From positions 1 to 64,000 of the forward strand of contig CACVAP010000039.1 of NCBI GenBank assembly GCA_902727895.1: DNA of 64,000 bases. Direction: 5' to 3'. The DNA comes from an uncultured Sulfurovum sp. (lineage in GTDB: Bacteria > Campylobacterota > Campylobacteria > Campylobacterales > Sulfurovaceae). The position numbers and the translations under genes are program-made. Numbering within the stretch: the first letter of the stretch is position 1; each line of letters opens with the position of its first letter. Positions 51,650-62,347 of the stretch are shown piece after piece. Under the pieces are notes generated by a model. That model searched no databases and was not told the DNA's origin. It saw nothing but the letters and a program-made list of their open reading frames with translations.

Positions 51650-52318
51650 ATGTTTTTTCATTGGTTAGAAAAGAATCCATTTTATTTTGCTTTGATGATA
51701 TCTGTTGTTATCTCATTTGCAGGATTACTTGAAATTGTTCCAAACTTTGCACAGGCTGCTCGTCCATTATCGACAGAGAAGCCTAAGACTGTATTGGAAT
51801 TAGCAGGGAAAAATCTTTATGTGAAAGACAACTGTATTGCTTGTCACTCACAAATGATTCGTCCATTTAAATCTGAAACAGACCGTTATGGTAAATACTC
51901 ACTTTCTGGTGAGTATGCTTACGATAGACCTTTCCTTTGGGGTTCTAAAAGAACAGGTCCAGACTTACACCGTGTAGGTAACTACCGTACAACTGACTGG
52001 CATGAAAATCACATGCGAGATCCAAAAGCGATGGTTCCTGGTTCAATTATGCCAGCCTACAAACATATGTTTACAAATGTAGCTGACATAGAATCTGCTT
52101 ATGCAGAAGCCGTAACCGTTAAAAATGCATTCTTTACTCCTTATGGTCCTGAATTTAAAAGAACCAGAGCAGCATGGGAAGCTCATCGTCCAAAGGTTAT
52201 AGCTGATGCTAAAAAAATTGCTGATGATATGAAAGACGAAGATGTTAAAAAAGCAGTAGCGAATGGTGAAGTACCAGAAATCGTTGCAATGATTGCTTAT
52301 CTTAACAGCTTAAAATAA
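51650..52318 (+). CDS. ccoO: cbb3-type cytochrome oxidase subunit II (mono-haem cytochrome c)
   Basis: Membrane-anchored mono-haem c subunit that passes electrons to CcoN. The 222-aa chain has an N-terminal anchor (about 12-30), a haem motif CIACHSQMIRPF (about 63) and the Met ligand region PGSIMPAYKHMF (about 140). The length fits CcoO. GGAGGTAGAAGTT precedes the ATG, 13 bp after ccoN. Confidence 0.95.
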   Translation: MFFHWLEKNPFYFALMISVVISFAGLLEIVPNFAQAARPLSTEKPKTVLELAGKNLYVKDNCIACHSQMIRPFKSETDRYGKYSLSGEYAYDRPFLWGSKRTGPDLHRVGNYRTTDWHENHMRDPKAMVPGSIMPAYKHMFTNVADIESAYAEAVTVKNAFFTPYGPEFKRTRAAWEAHRPKVIADAKKIADDMKDEDVKKAVANGEVPEIVAMIAYLNSLK

Positions 52319-52328
52319 GGAGAAAGAA

Positions 52329-52550
52329 ATGGACATTCAGAATATACAAGGTTATGGGATGTTCTTCTTGACCATTTTTTTAACAGTGATTTTGTATTGG
52401 TATATTCTATACCTTTACAGATCAGAAAAAAAAGGTGAGCGAGATTTTGAAAAGTATGGAAGGATTGCACTCGATGATAATATCGACAGTCCTCTAGTAG
52501 AAGATAAGATCGCTTCCGAAAGAGACAATACAAAGGAGCAAAATAAATGA
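52329..52550 (+). CDS. ccoQ: cbb3-type cytochrome oxidase subunit CcoQ
   Basis: A 73-aa single-helix subunit that stabilises the complex. The helix (about 10-31, GMFFLTIFLTVILYWYILYLY) is followed by YRSEKKGERDFEKYGRIALDD, the usual CcoQ tail (cited as KKGERDFEKYGRIALDD). It lies between ccoO and ccoP and its stop overlaps the ccoP ATG by 4 bp. Confidence 0.88.
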   Translation: MDIQNIQGYGMFFLTIFLTVILYWYILYLYRSEKKGERDFEKYGRIALDDNIDSPLVEDKIASERDNTKEQNK

Positions 52551-53434
52551 ATGCATTAACAATAAAAGCATTAGGATTTGCTGCAATACTTATCATTGCA
52601 ACAATTTATGTTGTAATGAGTATGGACATTGACTTAACAGACAGAGTTAATGCCATTACTATGGGTGGGGCAATAGCAATTGCTGTAATTACAGCTGGGG
52701 TTTCAGTTAAGTACATTAACCAAATGAAAACAGACACAGCGACTGGTGATCTTATGGATGACAACTGGGATGGAATTGGTGAAAGAACCAATGAATTACC
52801 ATCTGGTTGGGCATATACATTCTTAGCTGTATTCTTTTGGTCAATGTGGTATGGACTTATTGGGTATCCAGTAGATCAGTACAGTCAAATTGGTGAATAT
52901 AATGAAGAAGTTTTAGAACATAAAGCTACTTATGAGAAAAAATATGAAAATGCAAGTCCAGAAGTATTAACAAGTATGGGTAAATCACTTTACTTTGTAC
53001 AGTGTGCGCCATGTCATGGTAATACAGGTGATGGACTTTCAGGTAAAGCACAAGACTTAACTAAAAGAATGTCTAAAGCACAAATTTTAGATGTTATTAA
53101 AAATGGTTCAAACCAATTAAAGTATCCAATGGGTATGATGCCTCCAGGTATGGCTTCAGGTCAAGATGCTGAAGACATTGCAACCTATATTGCTGGTGGA
53201 TTAAAAGGTGAAGCTCCTGCATCATATGCAGCATGTACATCATGTCACGGTGCTGACTCAAAAGGTAACGCTGGAATGTCTCCTGACCTTACAGGTTATG
53301 ATAACACGCTTGTTAGTCACACTTTACAAAATGGTAAAAAAGGTATAATTGGTGCAATGCCTTCATTTAAAACTATGATTACACCTATTCAAGAAAAAGC
53401 ATTGGCTGCTTACATTCAGTCAATAGCACAATAA
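52547..53434 (+). CDS. ccoP: cbb3-type cytochrome oxidase subunit III (di-haem cytochrome c)
   Basis: Di-haem electron-entry subunit. The 295-aa protein has two N-terminal helices (about 5-25 and 33-52), a helix near 88-105 in the WAYTFLAVFFWSMWYGLIGYP segment (cited as TFLAVFFWSMWYGL) and two haem sites, CAPCHGNTGDG (about 155) and CTSCHGADSKG (about 230). Met ligands lie in GMMPPGM and GAMPSF. An extra N-terminal hydrophobic stretch compared with minimal CcoP is typical for this phylum. Confidence 0.95.
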   Translation: MNALTIKALGFAAILIIATIYVVMSMDIDLTDRVNAITMGGAIAIAVITAGVSVKYINQMKTDTATGDLMDDNWDGIGERTNELPSGWAYTFLAVFFWSMWYGLIGYPVDQYSQIGEYNEEVLEHKATYEKKYENASPEVLTSMGKSLYFVQCAPCHGNTGDGLSGKAQDLTKRMSKAQILDVIKNGSNQLKYPMGMMPPGMASGQDAEDIATYIAGGLKGEAPASYAACTSCHGADSKGNAGMSPDLTGYDNTLVSHTLQNGKKGIIGAMPSFKTMITPIQEKALAAYIQSIAQ

Positions 53435-53444
53435 GGAGTCTAAT

Positions 53445-53690
53445 ATGGCAGAAAATACAAAAAGAAGCATTTGGAGTATTCATGGTCTTCCAGGAATGCT
53501 TATTGCTGTAGTCCTGTTGATTGGTGTATTAATTTTCCTTCAACTGGCTGTTGTGGTAACTTATCGTTATGGAGCAGTCGCTCCTTATGATGAAGCACCA
53601 ATTAGAGATATAAATAATGTTAAAATGATTGCTGATTTAGAACAACAGAATCAATTTGCTTTTCAAACTCCAAAGTCTGAAAAAGAATAA
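53445..53690 (+). CDS. DUF4006-family membrane protein
   Basis: An 81-aa protein with one helix (about 17-38, GMLIAVVLLIGVLIFLQLAVV) and a C-terminal polar tail. The start NTKRSIWSIHGLPGML is the signature of DUF4006, a family seen right after ccoP in Campylobacterota. It is preceded by GGAGTCTAAT. A part in cbb3 assembly or stability is inferred from its constant position. Confidence 0.8.
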   Translation: MAENTKRSIWSIHGLPGMLIAVVLLIGVLIFLQLAVVVTYRYGAVAPYDEAPIRDINNVKMIADLEQQNQFAFQTPKSEKE

Positions 53691-53700
53691 AGGATAAACT

Positions 53701-53802
53701 ATGATTAAATACATGGACAAAATCTTAATCGCTTGTATGGTAGGGTCAGCTATTGTAGCTGTTTACCTATCAATGTCACAACACCTTCTTTACGTTGGTT
53801 AA
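53701..53802 (+). CDS. 33-aa single-helix protein of the cco operon
   Basis: ATG at 53701 with AAAGGATAAACT just upstream opens a 33-codon frame, MIKYMDKILIACMVGSAIVA and then VYLSMSQHLLYVG. It is one membrane helix with short ends. It lies 10 bp after the DUF4006 gene and its stop is followed within 1 bp by the next ATG, filling an otherwise empty slot in the operon. Position, ribosome site and hydrophobicity argue for a real small subunit or assembly peptide; no family is recognised. Confidence 0.6.
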   Translation: MIKYMDKILIACMVGSAIVAVYLSMSQHLLYVG

Positions 53803-53803
53803 T

Positions 53804-54430
53804 ATGCTAGGCATATTTAAATCTAGAAAAGCGATACTTCTCGCTTTTCTTCTTCCCCTTCTTCTAAATGCCTCTTCTTTTGTACTCAAAGATGACACTT
53901 TAAAACCTGAAGCCATTGAACTCATAGATAAAATGGGAAATGAATTATTGACTAAAACAATGATTAACGCTTATGTTGTAACAACAAATGAAGCATTTCC
54001 TGTTGGATTTAATTTGGTTCAACACTCAGAAATATATCATCCAAAAATGACAGCACCTTATGTTCTCTATATCTTTGCACCCAATGCACTTATTACAGAA
54101 AAAAGTGAATCTACAGGACGTGTAGGCATTATCCCTTCAGCAGAAGAGGTAACTGAACTTTATGACTATTCTGATGTACGAGATGCTGGATTAAATGTTA
54201 TTACTGTAAAAGATAAAAACACTAAAGAAGACAAAGAGAACATTGGCGTGGTTCAAGCTTATTCTGAACTTGCAGATAACATAGCAGATGCTAAAAATGT
54301 TGAAATGGAAACGACCATCCCAAATGACACCAGAATGATTATTTCTGTTCTACGTGTTATTCTTGTTATTGGTCTTATCTTAGTTACATGGATTTATGTA
54401 GTACGTCCAATTTTCATGAGGAAAAAATAA
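53804..54430 (+). CDS. Membrane-anchored periplasmic protein of the cco operon, unknown function
   Basis: A 208-aa protein with a signal peptide (residues 8-25, AILLAFLLPLLLNASS) and a C-terminal TM helix (about 180-203, VLRVILVIGLILVTWIYVV). The periplasmic part (IDKMGNELLTKTMINAYVVT, YHPKMTAPYVLYIFAPN) recalls TPM-type domains but lacks a firm motif. ATG 53804 is preferred over an in-frame TTG at 53795, which overlaps the 33-aa gene. Its stop overlaps the fixH ATG (TAATG). Probably a cbb3 accessory factor by position. Confidence 0.65.
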   Translation: MLGIFKSRKAILLAFLLPLLLNASSFVLKDDTLKPEAIELIDKMGNELLTKTMINAYVVTTNEAFPVGFNLVQHSEIYHPKMTAPYVLYIFAPNALITEKSESTGRVGIIPSAEEVTELYDYSDVRDAGLNVITVKDKNTKEDKENIGVVQAYSELADNIADAKNVEMETTIPNDTRMIISVLRVILVIGLILVTWIYVVRPIFMRKK

Positions 54431-54984
54431 TGACGAAAAAAAATCAAAATCGGTTTTGGTTCTTGTTTGTAATGGGAATTCTTGGTTTTGGAATTTCTAT
54501 GGTTATATGGACAGTTAAACAAGCTGTTTCAATACCTGTGCATGAGTCTAACAACTACATGTTAAAGTACCAAATGGCTGACATGAATATCAATGAGATC
54601 ATGGAGTTAGACGCAAAATTCAAAGCTAAGTACAGCATAAAAATTGAAGGTACTGAACTTCTAACCTTAGAAGATGATGCACAAAATACCAATGCAAAAC
54701 GCGCTCAAACTACGCCTATCAAATTAACTTCTGGTTCAAATAGTTTTACTTACTCAATTATGCAAGAACAAACAAATGTGGAAAATGCAAAAGTAACTTT
54801 TCTATTAACTCGACCACATAGTAGATATGATGATCATTTAGAAGAAAATATTAAATATCAAGATAATCACTACAAAACAACAGCTGTAGAACTTAATAAA
54901 AAAGGTCGATACACTTTACAATTAAAAGTCGAAATTGATGGACTAATTGGGTACATTGAAACACCAGCATATCTAATTAAATAG
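54430..54984 (+). CDS. FixH-like cbb3 oxidase accessory protein
   Basis: FixH/CcoH proteins aid cbb3 assembly together with the CcoI copper pump. The 184-aa protein has an N-terminal TM (about 8-30, FWFLFVMGILGFGISMVIWTV), a short juxtamembrane HESNNYMLKYQMADMNINEI segment (cited as HESNNYMLKYQMADMN) and a periplasmic Ig-like domain with FLLTRPHSRYDD and GRYTLQLKVEIDG, typical of FixH. ATG 54430 is chosen because GAGGAAAAAATA precedes it; a longer frame from 54388 overlaps the upstream gene and has no site. Confidence 0.8.
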   Translation: MTKKNQNRFWFLFVMGILGFGISMVIWTVKQAVSIPVHESNNYMLKYQMADMNINEIMELDAKFKAKYSIKIEGTELLTLEDDAQNTNAKRAQTTPIKLTSGSNSFTYSIMQEQTNVENAKVTFLLTRPHSRYDDHLEENIKYQDNHYKTTAVELNKKGRYTLQLKVEIDGLIGYIETPAYLIK

Positions 54985-55169: not shown

Positions 55170-56642
55170 ATGGCAAAACTAGTAATCATGGGTGGTGGTG
55201 TTGCAGGACATACCACTGCAACATTTGCAAAAAAGTGGTTAGGTAACGGTCACGAAGTAGTGGTTGTAACTCCCAATTCACAATGGAACTGGATTCCCTC
55301 TAACATTTGGGTAGGTGTTGGACAAATGGAAAAATCAGAGGTTACTTTCCCATTGGCTCCAGTTTATGAAAAAGCTGGAATTGTTTACAAGCAAGCACTA
55401 GCGACTACTATTCATCCAGAAGGTAGAGAAGGTGATGATACACCATTCATCGTTATTAAGTCTACGGAAGAAGGTGCTAATGGTGAGACAGAAGAACTTA
55501 CTTATGATTACCTTGTTAATGCAACAGGACCAAAACTAAACTTTGATGCAACACCAGGACTTGGAAATGGTCAAGGTCAAATGGGAGATAAAACTGTTTC
55601 TGTTTGTACAGCTGAACATGCTGTTCATGCAAACGAAGAGTTAACTAAAGTTTTTGAAAAAGCAAAAGCTGGTGAAAGACAAAAAATTCTTGTAGGAACA
55701 GGTCATGGTACTTGTACTTGTCAAGGTGCTGCTTTTGAATACATCTTTAACATTGAACACGAAGCTAAAAAAGCTGGTGTAAGAGATATGTTAGACATCA
55801 AATGGATCTCAAATGAAGCATTCTTAGGTGACTTTGGTATGGGTGGATTACACATGAAAGTTGGTGGATACACTGTAAGTTCTAAAATCTTCGCTGAATC
55901 ACTGTATGCAGAAAGAGATGTTGAGTGGATTATTGGGGCGCATACTTCTAAAGTAGAAGAGGGAAAAATTGAGTATGAACTACTTGATGGCACAATGCAT
56001 GAAGAAGAGTTTGACTTTGCAATGCTTATTCCTCCTTTCTCTGGTGTTGGATTCAAAGCTTATGCAAAAGATGGTGCAGACATTACTGACAAACTTTTCA
56101 TGCCAAATGGATTTATGATAGTAGATGCAAAATACGATGCTGGTGCATACGAAAACTGGAAAGCATCTGACTGGCCTGAGACTTACCAAAACCCAAGTTT
56201 TGGAAACATCTTTGCAGCTGGTATTGCTTTTGCTCCTCCACATCTTATTTCTAAACCAATGACTTCTCCAAATGGAACAGCCATTAACCCTACTCCACCT
56301 AGAACAGGTATGCCTGCTGGAATCATCGGAAAAGCTGTTGCACACTCTGTTTGTGATATGATTAAAAAAGGTGATGATGTAGAGCTTCATAAAGCTTCTA
56401 TGGCTGAAATGGGTGCTGCTTGTGTTGCTTCTGCTGGTAAAGGTGTACTTAATGGTACTGCTGCAGCAATGACTGTTTACCCTGTTGTACCTGACTTTGA
56501 AAAATACCCAGGAACAGGACGTGACACAAAGTATACCTTTGGTGAGATTGGTCTTGCTGGACACTGGATTAAACATATTTTACACCACATGTTTATTTGG
56601 AAAGCAAAACTTAAGCCAGGTTGGACTTTAATTCCAGAATAA
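55170..56642 (+). CDS. Sulfide:quinone oxidoreductase-like flavoprotein
   Basis: Probable membrane-surface FAD enzyme oxidising sulfide (or a related thiol) and passing electrons to quinone. The 490-aa protein starts with the dinucleotide motif VIMGGGVAGHTTATFAKK. Redox cysteines are likely in SVCTAEHAV (about 149), GTGHGTCTCQGAAFEY (about 179-181, an unusual CTC) and GAACVASAGKG (about 415). FGNIFAAGIAFAPP (about 350) is the second FAD segment. HWIKHILHHMFIWKAKLKPGW is a C-terminal amphipathic membrane-binding helix (cited as HWIKHILHHMFIWKAK). The SQR subtype is not certain. Confidence 0.8.
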   Translation: MAKLVIMGGGVAGHTTATFAKKWLGNGHEVVVVTPNSQWNWIPSNIWVGVGQMEKSEVTFPLAPVYEKAGIVYKQALATTIHPEGREGDDTPFIVIKSTEEGANGETEELTYDYLVNATGPKLNFDATPGLGNGQGQMGDKTVSVCTAEHAVHANEELTKVFEKAKAGERQKILVGTGHGTCTCQGAAFEYIFNIEHEAKKAGVRDMLDIKWISNEAFLGDFGMGGLHMKVGGYTVSSKIFAESLYAERDVEWIIGAHTSKVEEGKIEYELLDGTMHEEEFDFAMLIPPFSGVGFKAYAKDGADITDKLFMPNGFMIVDAKYDAGAYENWKASDWPETYQNPSFGNIFAAGIAFAPPHLISKPMTSPNGTAINPTPPRTGMPAGIIGKAVAHSVCDMIKKGDDVELHKASMAEMGAACVASAGKGVLNGTAAAMTVYPVVPDFEKYPGTGRDTKYTFGEIGLAGHWIKHILHHMFIWKAKLKPGWTLIPE

Positions 56643-56686
56643 GCTCGAAACAATTCAAAAAACTAAAAAGAAACAAGGAGAACACA

Positions 56687-56848
56687 ATGGTAAAAGAAGA
56701 ATTAAACTTTGCAAAAAGCGATGACTTTAACTTAACAATGCTTCCAGGAAAATTTGCAAAAGCAATGAGAACCTGTAAAATCTGGCAACTCTTTAGATTT
56801 ATGGTAATTAACGTAAAGATGTTAATTGTCGTTTCTAAAAGTCACTAA
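56687..56848 (+). CDS. 53-aa protein between SQR and the pseudo-deformylase gene
   Basis: ATG at 56687 with AAGGAGAACACA directly upstream opens a 53-codon frame starting MVKEELNFAKSDDFNLTMLP. It is basic and amphipathic with a single cysteine (MRTCKIWQLFRF) and a short hydrophobic C-terminal stretch (FMVINVKMLIVV). The strong ribosome site, 44 bp after the SQR stop, argues for a true gene. No family is recognised; a small SQR partner or membrane anchor is possible. Confidence 0.6.
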   Translation: MVKEELNFAKSDDFNLTMLPGKFAKAMRTCKIWQLFRFMVINVKMLIVVSKSH

Positions 56849-56862
56849 GCCCTTTAGTAACT

Positions 56863-57666
56863 TTGATACAAGAGATCATAACCTATCCAGCCCAAACAGA
56901 TTTTGGGTTTGGAGGGACAGTACGTCACTTTGACGAGACACTAACCCAACTACTCACTGACCTAAAAGACACCATCACAGCAAACAACTTAGAAGGTCTT
57001 TCAGCTTATCAGATTAGCTCGCCCTTAACCGTAATGGTTGTAAAAAAAGACAATGAGTTTATTGAGATTATTAACCCTACTATCTTTACAAAAGAAGGTA
57101 AACTTCATCCTACTGAATCAACAGCCTACTTTCCAAATCTTACAGCAACAACAACACGTGCGCAAAAGATTAAAGTAATGTATGAAGACAGAGAAGGACA
57201 ACAGCAGTTCTTAACGGCTGAAGATGACTTAGCCATTCTTATTCAGAGAAAAATGGATTATCTTTTAGGTTCAACTTTCTTAGCCAGAATGTCAATCGAA
57301 GAAAAAGAACTTTTTGAAAATAAATTAACACAAAATACTAATAACATAACACTAGAATCATGCCCAACAAACTTAGTAGGTGACAAGCTTTTAAAAGGTA
57401 TTAAATATGGAGTTATTGGAGGAGTTATAGCACTTGGTACAAGTTTTTTCTTAGAAGGTTCTGCTTTAAACTTATTGAAGACTTTAGAGTATTCCCTACT
57501 AGCCATATTACTTCTAGCTACGGTAACTTACTTTTTCTACGCTCAATATGAAGGTAAAAAGTACAATCATTGTACCTCATGTCAGATAGCCAATGTCGCT
57601 GCTATGACACTTATTAAAACCATTCATATTATTGGTCTTTTTTTGTTGATTTACTTTTTACTATAA
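56863..57666 (+). CDS. Catalytically dead peptide-deformylase homologue fused to membrane helices
   Basis: Residues 1-143 follow the peptide deformylase (PDF) pattern: IQEIITYPAQ start, motif 1 LEGLSAYQIS (Gln50 kept), INPTIF, then motif 2 TESTAYFPN where EGCLS-P is expected, and motif 3 IQRKMDYLLGSTFLARM where QHE-DHL-G is expected. The metal ligands Cys, His and His are replaced by Thr87, Arg129 and Tyr133, and the catalytic Glu by Lys130. From about 170 to 267 are three hydrophobic segments plus a CTSC pair (about 237). TTG 56863 is the only plausible start, with a weak ribosome site. It is probably in the SQR operon. Confidence 0.7.
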   Translation: MIQEIITYPAQTDFGFGGTVRHFDETLTQLLTDLKDTITANNLEGLSAYQISSPLTVMVVKKDNEFIEIINPTIFTKEGKLHPTESTAYFPNLTATTTRAQKIKVMYEDREGQQQFLTAEDDLAILIQRKMDYLLGSTFLARMSIEEKELFENKLTQNTNNITLESCPTNLVGDKLLKGIKYGVIGGVIALGTSFFLEGSALNLLKTLEYSLLAILLLATVTYFFYAQYEGKKYNHCTSCQIANVAAMTLIKTIHIIGLFLLIYFLL

Positions 57667-58133: not shown

Positions 58134-58355
58134 TTATTTTTCTTTTTGCTCTCTCTTCTTAGCTATCATCTCTTCTTGTTTCGCCTCTTTATCTGCTGCT
58201 GCTTTTAAATCATCTGGTGAATCAAAAAGCATTCCATCCATCATCTTTTTTTGATCATCAAAGTTTCCTTTTTTTGCTGATGCCACAAAGATTGTAATAA
58301 GTGTAAATGTTACCACTACCCCAACGATTAACTCTAACTGTAATACTTCATTCAT
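58134..58355 (-). CDS. ccoS: cbb3-type cytochrome oxidase assembly protein CcoS
   Basis: A 73-aa single-helix protein required for cofactor insertion into cbb3 oxidase. The helix (about 7-25, LELIVGVVVTFTLITIFVA) is followed by the family signature KKGNFDDQKKMMDGMLFD, here in the form GNFDDQ...MLFDSPDDL. The C-terminal tail is highly charged and longer than usual. It lies 26 bp downstream of ccoI on the same strand. Confidence 0.92.
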   Translation of the reverse strand: MNEVLQLELIVGVVVTFTLITIFVASAKKGNFDDQKKMMDGMLFDSPDDLKAAADKEAKQEEMIAKKREQKEK

Positions 58356-58381
58356 CTATTTTTTCCTTTACTTTTTAATGT

Positions 58382-60775
58382 TTACTTTTCATTTTTGATT
58401 CGCATGGAGTTCCCTACTACAAGCAGTGAACTTAAACTCATGGAGAGTGCTGCGACCAATGGCATAACATATCCTGCAATTGCCAATGGAATCGTTAAAA
58501 CATTGTAAACCAATGATATCATCAAATTTTGTTTAATAAACTTATAGGTACGACCTGAGATATTAAATGAATCCTTCACCCCTCTTAAAGAGTTATTCAT
58601 CACCACCACATCGGACATAGCAAGTGCCACATCAGCCCCTGAACCCATGGCAATGGCGATGTCAGCATGGGAAAGGGCTAAAGTGTCATTAATCCCATCA
58701 CCCACCATAACCACCGTTTCACCTTCATTTTTCAGTTTTTTAATTAACTCAGCTTTATCTATGGGTGACATTTCAAACATTACCTCATCTATACCTGCTT
58801 CACTTGCAACACGTCGAGCAACTTTTTCATGGTCACCTGTCGCCATGATAATTTTAATCTTATTAGATTGACAGTAGTCCACTAACTCAGCAACATCTTC
58901 TTTAATGCTATCTTCGAGTTCAAACGTAGCCAGTAATACATTATCAATGGCAAAATGATAAATAGTATACTCACTTGGCTCCACAGCGATATTTTGCGAT
59001 TGCATTAACTTAGCATTACCACCCAAAAGCTTTTTCTCTTGATAATAGGCTTCAATCCCTTGGGCTGAGATTTGTTCTATGTTCAAGAGTTCTTTATTGT
59101 CTATATCAATATGTTCTTGTAGCAGATGATTTTTAATCGCCCTACTCACAGGATGAGTGGAAGCATCTACCAACGCAAACAACAAGGCAAGGTTTTCAAC
59201 ACTTAAAACTTGACTTTGATGTTTAACAGTTAAGTCTCCCTTGGTAATGGTTCCTGTTTTATCCACAACAACAGCCGTAGCATTCGCAAAAGTCTCAATA
59301 AACTTTGCCTCTTTAAAGAGTAAACCTTTCTCTGTCGCCCATGAAATCCCTACCAAAGAAGCAATGGGTGTTGCCAAAGCCAAAGCACAAGGACAAGCAA
59401 TAACAATCACCGAGATGGTAATAATCAATGAAGTCTCAAAGTCACTAGAATAGAAATACCAGCCCACAAAAGTCATGAGTGCCAACAAAATAATGGTTAA
59501 AGAGAAGTGTTTAGAGAGTTTATTGGTCGTCTCTTCGATCTTAGGTTTAGAGGCTAAAGAGTCTTCTAAAAGATTCATCATGGTACTTAAAGTTGAATTG
59601 GCATAGTTCTTGGTGGCTTCATAACGCATGACCATACCATTGTTAATGGTTCCAGAAAAGACAAGGTCACCTTTTTGTTTTTCAACAGGCAAAGACTCTC
59701 CACTTAAAGAACTCTCATCAAAAGTAGCCAACTCTACAATGGACTTTCCATCAACCGAAGCTTTTTCACCATTTTTAACCTCTATAATGTCCCCTACTTC
59801 TATCTGATCCAACATCACAACTGATTTTCCACCCTCTCTAACCACAGTGGCTTCAAGTGGAATTTGATTTTTAATCTTGTCCATACTGTCCATGGCAGAC
59901 TTTTTCCCTAAGACTTCCAAATACTTCCCAACTAAGACAAACATAATAATCATAGCAACAGAGTCAAAATAACTTTGTCCTTCTGCTCCAAATAAAATGG
60001 TTAAAGAATATAGGTAAGTAAGTGTAGCCCCTCCAGAAACCAGTAAGTCCATGTTGATGATTTTATTTTTCAAACCAAAGAATGCGCCTTTAAAGAAGAC
60101 TTTTCCTGAATAAAACAGCACCATGGTCGCAAAAATAAACTCCACCACATGAATCATGTGTAAAACTTCAGGATCCATCCCTGAAAAATATCCAGCATAC
60201 TTAGCCACACCAATCATCATAATGTTCATGGTACCAAATATAGCAACCCCAACACGGGTGATGTAATCCCGTTTTGCTTCAACCGACTTTTCACTCGCCT
60301 CATTATGATCATAAGGGTAGGCGTTATACCCTACAGAGCGAATCTTATCAATAATACTCGAAAGTTTTACAACGTCTTCATCCCAAATAACTTTGGCTTT
60401 GTTATTTGAAAAGTTAATACTGGCTTCTAAGACCCCTTCTGTTTGGTTAATAACTTTTTCATTTAACCAAACACAAGCTGCACAGTGAATTCCTTCTATA
60501 ACTAAATCCACTCTTGAGAAGCCATTTTCATCTGTTTTAATGTAACGCTGTTTAAAACTCTCTAAGTCAAAGTTACCCGTATCATTTTGACTTTCTATAG
60601 GAGGGGCTATGGTGGCATTACGCATTTTGTCATAAAAATCATCTAACCCATCTTCTTTTAAGAGATGGTAAACACCTTGACATCCATTACAACAAAAATA
60701 AAGTTCTGGTTCCTCTGTTATCATCACAGACTTATCAAATTCTAGTTGGCAATGTGAACATTTTACATTAGACAA
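58382..60775 (-). CDS. ccoI: Copper-transporting P1B-type ATPase (CcoI-like)
   Basis: Exports copper for cbb3 oxidase assembly. The 797-aa protein begins with a zinc-finger-like pair CSHCQLEF and FCCNGCQGVYHLL (DUF2318/FixI-type), then an HMA-like domain with GIHCAACVWL (about 93). Eight TM helices follow with the ion site ACPCALALATP (about 450). The P-domain has DKTGTITKG (about 505), the N-domain has THPVSRAI and the hinge is MVGDGINDTLALSHADIAIAMG (cited as GDGINDTLALS). CcoI rather than a detoxifying pump is inferred from the N-terminal CxxC region and the ccoS and ccoG neighbours. Confidence 0.92.
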   Translation of the reverse strand: MSNVKCSHCQLEFDKSVMITEEPELYFCCNGCQGVYHLLKEDGLDDFYDKMRNATIAPPIESQNDTGNFDLESFKQRYIKTDENGFSRVDLVIEGIHCAACVWLNEKVINQTEGVLEASINFSNNKAKVIWDEDVVKLSSIIDKIRSVGYNAYPYDHNEASEKSVEAKRDYITRVGVAIFGTMNIMMIGVAKYAGYFSGMDPEVLHMIHVVEFIFATMVLFYSGKVFFKGAFFGLKNKIINMDLLVSGGATLTYLYSLTILFGAEGQSYFDSVAMIIMFVLVGKYLEVLGKKSAMDSMDKIKNQIPLEATVVREGGKSVVMLDQIEVGDIIEVKNGEKASVDGKSIVELATFDESSLSGESLPVEKQKGDLVFSGTINNGMVMRYEATKNYANSTLSTMMNLLEDSLASKPKIEETTNKLSKHFSLTIILLALMTFVGWYFYSSDFETSLIITISVIVIACPCALALATPIASLVGISWATEKGLLFKEAKFIETFANATAVVVDKTGTITKGDLTVKHQSQVLSVENLALLFALVDASTHPVSRAIKNHLLQEHIDIDNKELLNIEQISAQGIEAYYQEKKLLGGNAKLMQSQNIAVEPSEYTIYHFAIDNVLLATFELEDSIKEDVAELVDYCQSNKIKIIMATGDHEKVARRVASEAGIDEVMFEMSPIDKAELIKKLKNEGETVVMVGDGINDTLALSHADIAIAMGSGADVALAMSDVVVMNNSLRGVKDSFNISGRTYKFIKQNLMISLVYNVLTIPLAIAGYVMPLVAALSMSLSSLLVVGNSMRIKNEK

Positions 60776-60851
60776 ATCAATCTCCTTTAATAATTTTAAA
60801 TTATGTTAATTATAATTTAAAGATATAAGTGAAACTATAGCTCTTTTTGTC

Positions 60852-60857
60852 TATAAT
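60852..60857 (+). promoter_or_regulatory. Predicted -10 box of ccoG
   Basis: TATAAT in GTCTATAATCTAAAT, 33 bp upstream of the GTG start, inside the 114-bp divergent region between ccoI and ccoG. No FNR-like palindrome was seen in this region. Confidence 0.5.
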
Positions 60858-60889
60858 CTAAATAATTATAGCAAAATAAAGGATGAAGC

Positions 60890-62347
60890 GTGGAAAATCA
60901 AGAACTTCAAAATGAAGAAACTGAACAACAGAATGCTCAAGCTACAAAAATAAAAAAAGAAAAGCCTAAAAAGCTCGAACCAAAACTCCCCTTTAGAATT
61001 AAACGTTATTACGTATACATATTAATAACCATATTCTCATTGAGTTTACCATTTATTACTTTTGGTGGAAACCATATTTTTCTACTCTCTTTTGACAAAC
61101 AACAACTACACCTAATGGGTACGTTATTTGACATGCAAGAGCTTTACATGATGCCATTTGTACTAATGTTACTCTTTATTGGTATTTTTGCAGCTACCTC
61201 TGTTGGTGGTCGTGTGTTTTGTGGTTGGGCTTGTCCTCAAACCATCTTTAGAGTTATCTACCGTGACCTTATAGAAACAAAACTCCTTGGTATGAGAAAG
61301 AAAATCTCTAACAAGCAAAAAGAACCAGACTATACAACTAAAGAGAATGCAAGTAAACGTCTTCTTGCTATTTTAATTTGGACAACCTTAGCATTTATAG
61401 CTGCTGCGAACTTTACATGGTTCTTTGTACCACCTGAAGACTTTTTTAACTACATCATGTCACCTGATGAACACCCTGTTCTTATGGGTCTGATTCTTGG
61501 AATTGTTGCATTCCTTGTTTATGATGTTGTGTTCTTAAAAGAAGACTGGTGTGCATACATCTGTCCTTATTCTCGTATACAGTCTGTTCTTTACGATGAA
61601 AATACACTTCAAGCCATTTACAACCCAGTAAGAGGTGGTAAGATTTATGATGAGAAAAAAGAGAAGTTGGTCTTTAAACAAAAAGATTTAGCTGAAGAAG
61701 AAAACGAATGTACAACTTGTGAAAAATGTGTAACGGTTTGTCCAACACATATTGACATTAGAAAAGGTTTACAACTAGAATGTATTAACTGTTTAGAATG
61801 TGTTGATGCCTGTACTACCGTTATGGGTAAACTGGGTAAAGACTCTCTTGTTAAATGGTCAAGTAATGCCACAGCTTATGAGGGTAAAGAAACGAAGATG
61901 TTAAGACCAGTTAGTTATATGTATGCTGGTGCTTTAGCGCTTATTGTTGCCATGCTGATTATAATGAGTGGTGAAAAAGAATACATGATTTTAGACATTA
62001 ACAAAGGTAATAGACTCTATAAAGTAGAAAATACAACCGTAAGTAATGACTACCTAATGTTCTTTAAAAACACTGAACCAAACAACCATACCTATAAGAT
62101 GGAAGTAGTTGGACAGTATGCTGGTAAAATCGAAATTAAAAGATTTAAACAAGCAAGCGTAAAATCTGGACAAGGTACAAAAGAAGTATTGATTCTTTCT
62201 ACAACTAAAAACCTAAGTAAAGATGCAAGTAAAGATTCTGTGTTAAAAGTGCAACTTAATGCCTACTCAACAACTGAACCTGAACGTGTAAAATTACTCA
62301 AAGAACTCTCGTTTATCTATCCTAGTGAAGCGAAGCTAAAACAATAA
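60890..62347 (+). CDS. ccoG: cbb3 oxidase accessory ferredoxin-type protein CcoG (RdxA/FixG)
   Basis: Membrane-bound Fe-S protein that reduces Cu(II) for cbb3 assembly. The 485-aa protein has about five TM helices, an N-terminal FCGWACPQTIFR segment (about 108) and a double ferredoxin motif CTTCEKCVTVCP and CINCLECVDACT (about 275-310). A C-terminal Ig-like FixG domain follows from about 365. The GTG start is preceded by AAAGGATGAAGC. It is divergent from ccoI-ccoS. Confidence 0.93.
   Translation: MENQELQNEETEQQNAQATKIKKEKPKKLEPKLPFRIKRYYVYILITIFSLSLPFITFGGNHIFLLSFDKQQLHLMGTLFDMQELYMMPFVLMLLFIGIFAATSVGGRVFCGWACPQTIFRVIYRDLIETKLLGMRKKISNKQKEPDYTTKENASKRLLAILIWTTLAFIAAANFTWFFVPPEDFFNYIMSPDEHPVLMGLILGIVAFLVYDVVFLKEDWCAYICPYSRIQSVLYDENTLQAIYNPVRGGKIYDEKKEKLVFKQKDLAEEENECTTCEKCVTVCPTHIDIRKGLQLECINCLECVDACTTVMGKLGKDSLVKWSSNATAYEGKETKMLRPVSYMYAGALALIVAMLIIMSGEKEYMILDINKGNRLYKVENTTVSNDYLMFFKNTEPNNHTYKMEVVGQYAGKIEIKRFKQASVKSGQGTKEVLILSTTKNLSKDASKDSVLKVQLNAYSTTEPERVKLLKELSFIYPSEAKLKQ

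Follow-up and report, generated by a model that had tools for sequence, protein, structure and literature searches.

A sulfide:quinone reductase, a 53-aa protein, and a membrane-fused deformylase-like pseudo-enzyme form a recurrent gene unit in Campylobacterota

A unit of three genes, encoding a sulfide:quinone reductase (SQR), a 53-aa protein, and a membrane-fused protein related to peptide deformylase (PDF; here psiPDF), was found in an uncultured Sulfurovum sp., and both this arrangement and the altered catalytic motif of psiPDF recurred phylum-wide in Campylobacterota, far beyond chance. The finding is real and more than an isolated oddity, and it is apparently undescribed; no description of the 53-aa protein or psiPDF was found in the open literature searched (subscription papers were outside the scope of the search). 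The 53-aa protein, not psiPDF, was the near-obligate partner of SQR and represents the larger surprise of the two.

The unit occupied positions 55170–57666 of the window, i.e., the whole 64,000-nucleotide stretch of DNA that was analysed, with all features on the + strand. The genes for SQR (490 aa; 55170..56642), the basic 53-aa protein (s53; 56687..56848), and psiPDF (267 aa; 56863..57666) were separated by gaps of 44 and 14 bases, respectively, and a scan of the unit detected no terminator-like site between them. The gene positions and same-strand order given in the first-pass annotation were confirmed by an ORF check, and its length for the small protein was also correct: the automatic ORF begins upstream at TTG 56621, and ATG 56687 has a Shine-Dalgarno-like AAGGAG ahead of it (56674..56680, give or take a base or two), with homologues in relatives and dN/dS also supporting this gene. 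The unit sits within an apparent cbb3 oxidase cluster (51650–54984 and 58134–62347), with CcoO/Q/P-like genes and a FixH/YtkA-like gene upstream and CcoS, copper ATPase, and CcoG-like genes downstream. The oxidase genes were considered as conserved neighbours of the unit and rejected, as this placement was not kept in relatives.

The first gene is identified as an SQR by homology to solved SQRs, its flavin motif, and three cysteines. Its best PDB match in a phmmer search was the Aquifex aeolicus SQR (3hyv_A; E 2.3e-36, residues 4–442), and the Aquifex and Acidithiobacillus SQRs were the closest solved structures. Cys146, Cys184, and Cys418 occupied the positions of the three Aquifex SQR cysteines, and the GxGxxG flavin motif and the Pfam domain Pyr_redox_2 were present; no signal peptide was seen in the window SQR. 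The enzyme is probably a type IV SQR (SqrD), an assignment that follows the published description of Epsilonproteobacteria rather than tree placement: type IV is reported to be general in sulfur-oxidising members of this group, type I is unreported there, and type IV has no reported TAT motif (PMC4584964). Most of the SQR-positive relatives carried homologues with 60–96% identity, and the value dropped to ~51–53% in a small number of distant families. Several genomes had an additional SQR paralogue, further diverged and paired with a 53-aa-like gene of its own (L135, L136, L137, L131, and L052), and the one at L131 was followed by genes resembling respiratory-dehydrogenase membrane and iron-sulfur subunits.

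psiPDF is a genuine PDF homologue, as indicated by both Pfam and the predicted fold. The protein, whose TTG start is common to three of the four nearest relatives, matched PF01327 (E 7e-26, 91.1 bits, cut-off 22.8) over a PDF domain of approximately residues 1–157; against NCBIfam TIGR00079 it scored 68.3 bits, under the 103.95 cut-off for true deformylases. In an AlphaFold2 model built from a 27-sequence alignment (mean pLDDT 82.8), the PDF fold was followed by three helices, and the top Foldseek matches were all PDFs (4az4, E 1.4e-10, TM 0.73 by target), which settled in its favour the point that the first-pass annotation had set beforehand as decisive for a dead deformylase domain. Gln50 of motif 1 was retained, while EGCLS was changed to ESTAY, with Thr replacing the metal-binding Cys at codon 87 (57121..57123), and QHExDH was changed to QRKMDY at codons 128–133 (57244..57261). 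Aligned to the E. coli enzyme, Cys90, His132, Glu133, and His136 thus corresponded to Thr87, Arg129, Lys130, and Tyr133, respectively. The earlier claim that the catalytic groups were lost holds beyond the window, since HExxH was found in none of the 109 aligned homologues, QRKxDY being the commonest form; Cys occurred at position 87 in four homologues and His at position 129 in three, and the full ligand set never occurred. The dN/dS of psiPDF was 0.07–0.17, which argues for selection rather than decay. On the family-wide loss of catalytic residues together with purifying selection, psiPDF is classed as a selected pseudo-enzyme, its inactivity itself being deduced from these residues. A canonical PDF with intact motifs was encoded elsewhere in the same genome, so that the paralogue was free for another role. 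Databases still label psiPDF 'peptide deformylase'. On the Sulfurovum mangrovi plasmid NZ_CP087125 (L144:5868-6683), the psiPDF frame was disturbed from about residue 54 to residue 90, through sequencing error or decay, and the annotation splits it into two 'peptide deformylase' genes.

The linkage was surveyed in a GTDB scan with one genome per species. Of the 170 relatives found, the best 80 were retained; all of these were Campylobacterota, and they spanned Sulfurovum, Nitratifractor, Sulfurimonas, Sulfuricurvum, Arcobacteraceae, and others. Of these 80, 78 had enough upstream sequence to be informative, and 68 of the 78 showed the order SQR, 53-aa gene, psiPDF; in one of the remainder the 53-aa gene lay at the end of a contig, and the other nine were unlinked. 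Gaps within the unit were short across relatives, and only these three genes were common to most loci, the wider neighbours being variable. With a PDF fold, no HExxH homologue, and conserved linkage to SQR, the description of psiPDF as a catalytically dead, membrane-bound, SQR-associated pseudo-enzyme therefore stands. The nine unlinked loci and some second psiPDF copies lay away from SQR in other neighbourhoods. Three unlinked copies from Sulfuricurvum and Sulfurimonas (L095, L110, and L112) were located near a conserved MerR-type regulator gene.

Presence and absence were also counted in 149 related genomes, which partly overlap the GTDB loci and whose counts are not phylogenetically independent; psiPDF was present in 67, SQR in 103, and both in 66, giving co-occurrence counts of 66/1/37/45 for psiPDF and SQR (Fisher p 3e-14) and of 100/3/2/44 for SQR and the 53-aa gene (Fisher p 1e-31). 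The single psiPDF genome lacking SQR (G014) retained the 53-aa gene, and a transposase-like ORF just upstream of that gene accounts for the absence of an adjoining SQR. In six genomes (G043, G060, G068, G075, G113, and G128), psiPDF and SQR were both present on different contigs, which suggests a partner that acts in trans. The 53-aa gene accompanied and adjoined SQR in 100 of the 103 SQR genomes, including those lacking psiPDF, and usually lay 15–150 bases downstream. The first-pass annotation was therefore right about the association of psiPDF with SQR and missed the near-obligate partner role of the 53-aa protein. On an SQR tree, linked psiPDF was clustered (7 changes vs 22.8 with shuffled labels, 0/500 as low), where 'no psiPDF' denotes the lack of linkage at that locus and the counts share ancestry; this pattern fits an ancient acquisition followed by several losses or relocations. 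An apparent SQR-53aa gene fusion in G049 was rejected, as it reflected an NNNN assembly gap.

The pairing of SQR with the 53-aa protein also spans phyla, because two closely related SQRs, on plasmids of Candidatus Thiodictyon syntrophicum (Gammaproteobacteria) and Marivivens (Alphaproteobacteria), were each directly followed by a 53-aa homologue annotated as hypothetical (L145:5573-5731 and L146:5486-5644, respectively). No psiPDF was found beside these two pairs. Among 72,556 plasmids, 53-aa matches occurred only on three SQR-bearing plasmids, apart from one chance match. The protein is basic (10 K/R/H vs 4 D/E), had no Pfam match, and showed a dN/dS of 0.05–0.13. Its N-termini were not conserved across homologues, and its C-terminal half was strongly conserved (MRTCxIWQFIRFxxINIKMxxVVxKSH), with Arg, Lys, and Asn within a hydrophobic stretch and moderate hydrophobic moments; it probably forms an in-plane or membrane-embedded helix, judging by its sequence. 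The 53-aa protein is best read as a small membrane subunit belonging to the window's SQR type.

We tentatively favour, at slightly less than even confidence, a single sulfide-oxidation module in which psiPDF is a membrane accessory of SQR and the 53-aa protein. SQR would oxidise sulfide and reduce quinone, and SQRs of this type would consistently be joined in the membrane by the small 53-aa protein, as a subunit or as an anchor. psiPDF would be a Campylobacterota-specific third component, in which a PDF fold has been repurposed without metal binding or cutting of the formyl group; held in the membrane by its three helices, it may help, from within the membrane, to assemble, stabilise, or regulate the complex of SQR and the 53-aa protein. 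It would be optional, since SQR can work without psiPDF in view of the 37 of 103 SQR-positive genomes that lack it, some of them fragmentary assemblies. This proposal is based on homology, the predicted fold, a catalytic site that is lost in every homologue, selection, gene order, and co-occurrence, and we infer from it physical association, topology, a role for the thiols, the loss of activity itself, and the direction in which SQR is affected. In an artificial SQR/53-aa/psiPDF fusion (the natural-frame read-through of L064, with stops as Gly), no confident contacts were predicted (pTM 0.54), and the 53-aa region of the same chain had a pLDDT of ~30–50, an outcome that weighs neither for nor against contact. 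A more far-reaching version, which we regard as unlikely, is that this SQR type forms the core of an undescribed membrane complex with a cross-phyla 53-aa subunit and a psiPDF whose CxxC transfers sulfane sulfur or electrons.

The membrane part of psiPDF bears on its possible function. As claimed in the first-pass annotation, three membrane helices (residues 172–194, 199–233, and 241–266; 57376..57660) and a CxxC had been gained according to the model and sequence. The motif (C237, C240; 57571..57582), at the start of the third helix, is followed by Gln241, and both CxxC and Gln241 were present in all 110 alignment rows. The invariance of CxxC in the GTDB loci is biased, because the scan was seeded with a narrower alignment (A2) whose patterns include CxxC; the unbiased test is given by the 27 homologues found by BLAST, a search not based on CxxC, all of which contained it. 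From the positive-inside rule, the site is predicted to face the cytoplasm, and at the membrane surface it is probably a thiol site, redox-active or sulfane-sulfur-handling, as far as the sequence indicates. The most interesting rival reading, although an improbable one, makes psiPDF a thiol relay whose surface CxxC takes sulfane sulfur (persulfide or polysulfide) from SQR or exchanges electrons with quinone. The invariant CxxC, its predicted position at the third helix, and the strict association with a sulfide enzyme argue for it, and the charged former active site (Arg129, Lys130, and Lys61) could bind anionic sulfur species. E. coli PDF binds hydrosulfide in 4az4 and 4al2, presumably on the metal; this is only a lead, because the metal site of psiPDF is gone. 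DsbB and VKOR have CxxC sites next to quinone that face the periplasm, whereas that of psiPDF is predicted to be cytoplasmic, and psiPDF showed no Pfam sequence similarity to either family. Metal binding by the two cysteines is equally possible.

It is comparably doubtful that psiPDF has an unrelated membrane function and travels with sqr merely as an old operon neighbour. The varied genes beside unlinked copies and the absence of psiPDF from 37 SQR-positive genomes are in line with such a history; however, in none of the 149 genomes did psiPDF occur where SQR and the 53-aa gene were both missing, adjacency aside.

We also considered, and find quite unlikely, that the old peptide-binding groove of psiPDF recognises ribosomes or formylated N-termini at the membrane and so guides the 53-aa protein or SQR during co-translational insertion. 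E. coli PDF acts at the ribosome, and we counted this in its favour together with the retained fold, Gln50 in 101 of 110 rows, and the added membrane anchor. Against it, the metal, the general base, and several substrate-contact positions are altered, and the 53-aa N-termini lack conservation. Specifically, psiPDF was changed relative to E. coli PDF at Gly43, Ile44, Gly89, and Arg97, which we take to be contacts to the substrate backbone; with the metal site also changed, the earlier suggestion that psiPDF binds formyl-methionine peptides is weak and without support from the alignment, while the scaffolding or regulation proposed alongside it is possible. That psiPDF is still a deformylase or another hydrolase with a rebuilt site seems very improbable: its PF01327 match exceeds the cut-off and motif changes in type 3 PDFs do not always abolish activity (PMC12690207), but the family as a whole lacks the catalytic Glu and all three metal ligands, no member has the full set, and the genome encodes a canonical PDF.

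The accessory module favoured here, if true, would matter because sulfide enters respiration through SQR, an enzyme usually regarded as monotopic and made of a single subunit. A companion found next to almost all copies of one SQR type, together with a phylum-specific pseudo-enzyme, would alter the ways of expressing, purifying, and assaying SQR, and could have consequences for its location and for the destination of the sulfur product. psiPDF clearly illustrates the conversion of a housekeeping hydrolase into a membrane pseudo-enzyme, and the unit suggests that accessory components of bacterial sulfide oxidation have been overlooked in sulfur-oxidising Campylobacterota.

Compared with known systems, the window SQR shares the flavin motif and all three cysteines with described type I and type IV SQRs (Aquifex aeolicus 3hyv; type IV), and differs in having the gene of a conserved 53-aa partner, and often psiPDF, downstream of its own. 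As a small protein, probably of the membrane, that is linked with a respiratory enzyme, the 53-aa protein resembles TorE/NapE, for which better anchorage and multimerisation of membrane components are reported (PMC6134056); the enzyme is a different one. With type 1 PDFs (PF01327; E. coli Def and H. pylori Def, 2ew5), psiPDF shares the fold, the motif 1 Gln, the conserved Glu of motif 2, and Gln/Asp/Gly of motif 3, and the C-terminal helix region of the H. pylori enzyme is alignable to it; unlike them, it lacks the Cys/His/His ligands and the catalytic Glu and carries three membrane helices and a CxxC. The terms 'Campylobacterota' and 'transmembrane' are both absent from the main text of a PDF survey (PMC12690207), which describes type 3 PDFs as weak or inactive accessory forms of Gram-positives and trypanosomes whose motif changes are not always fatal to activity. 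Like psiPDF, these are extra altered-motif paralogues beside a canonical enzyme; by that description they are changed in motifs I and II, whereas psiPDF has lost motifs II and III and is fused to a membrane domain.
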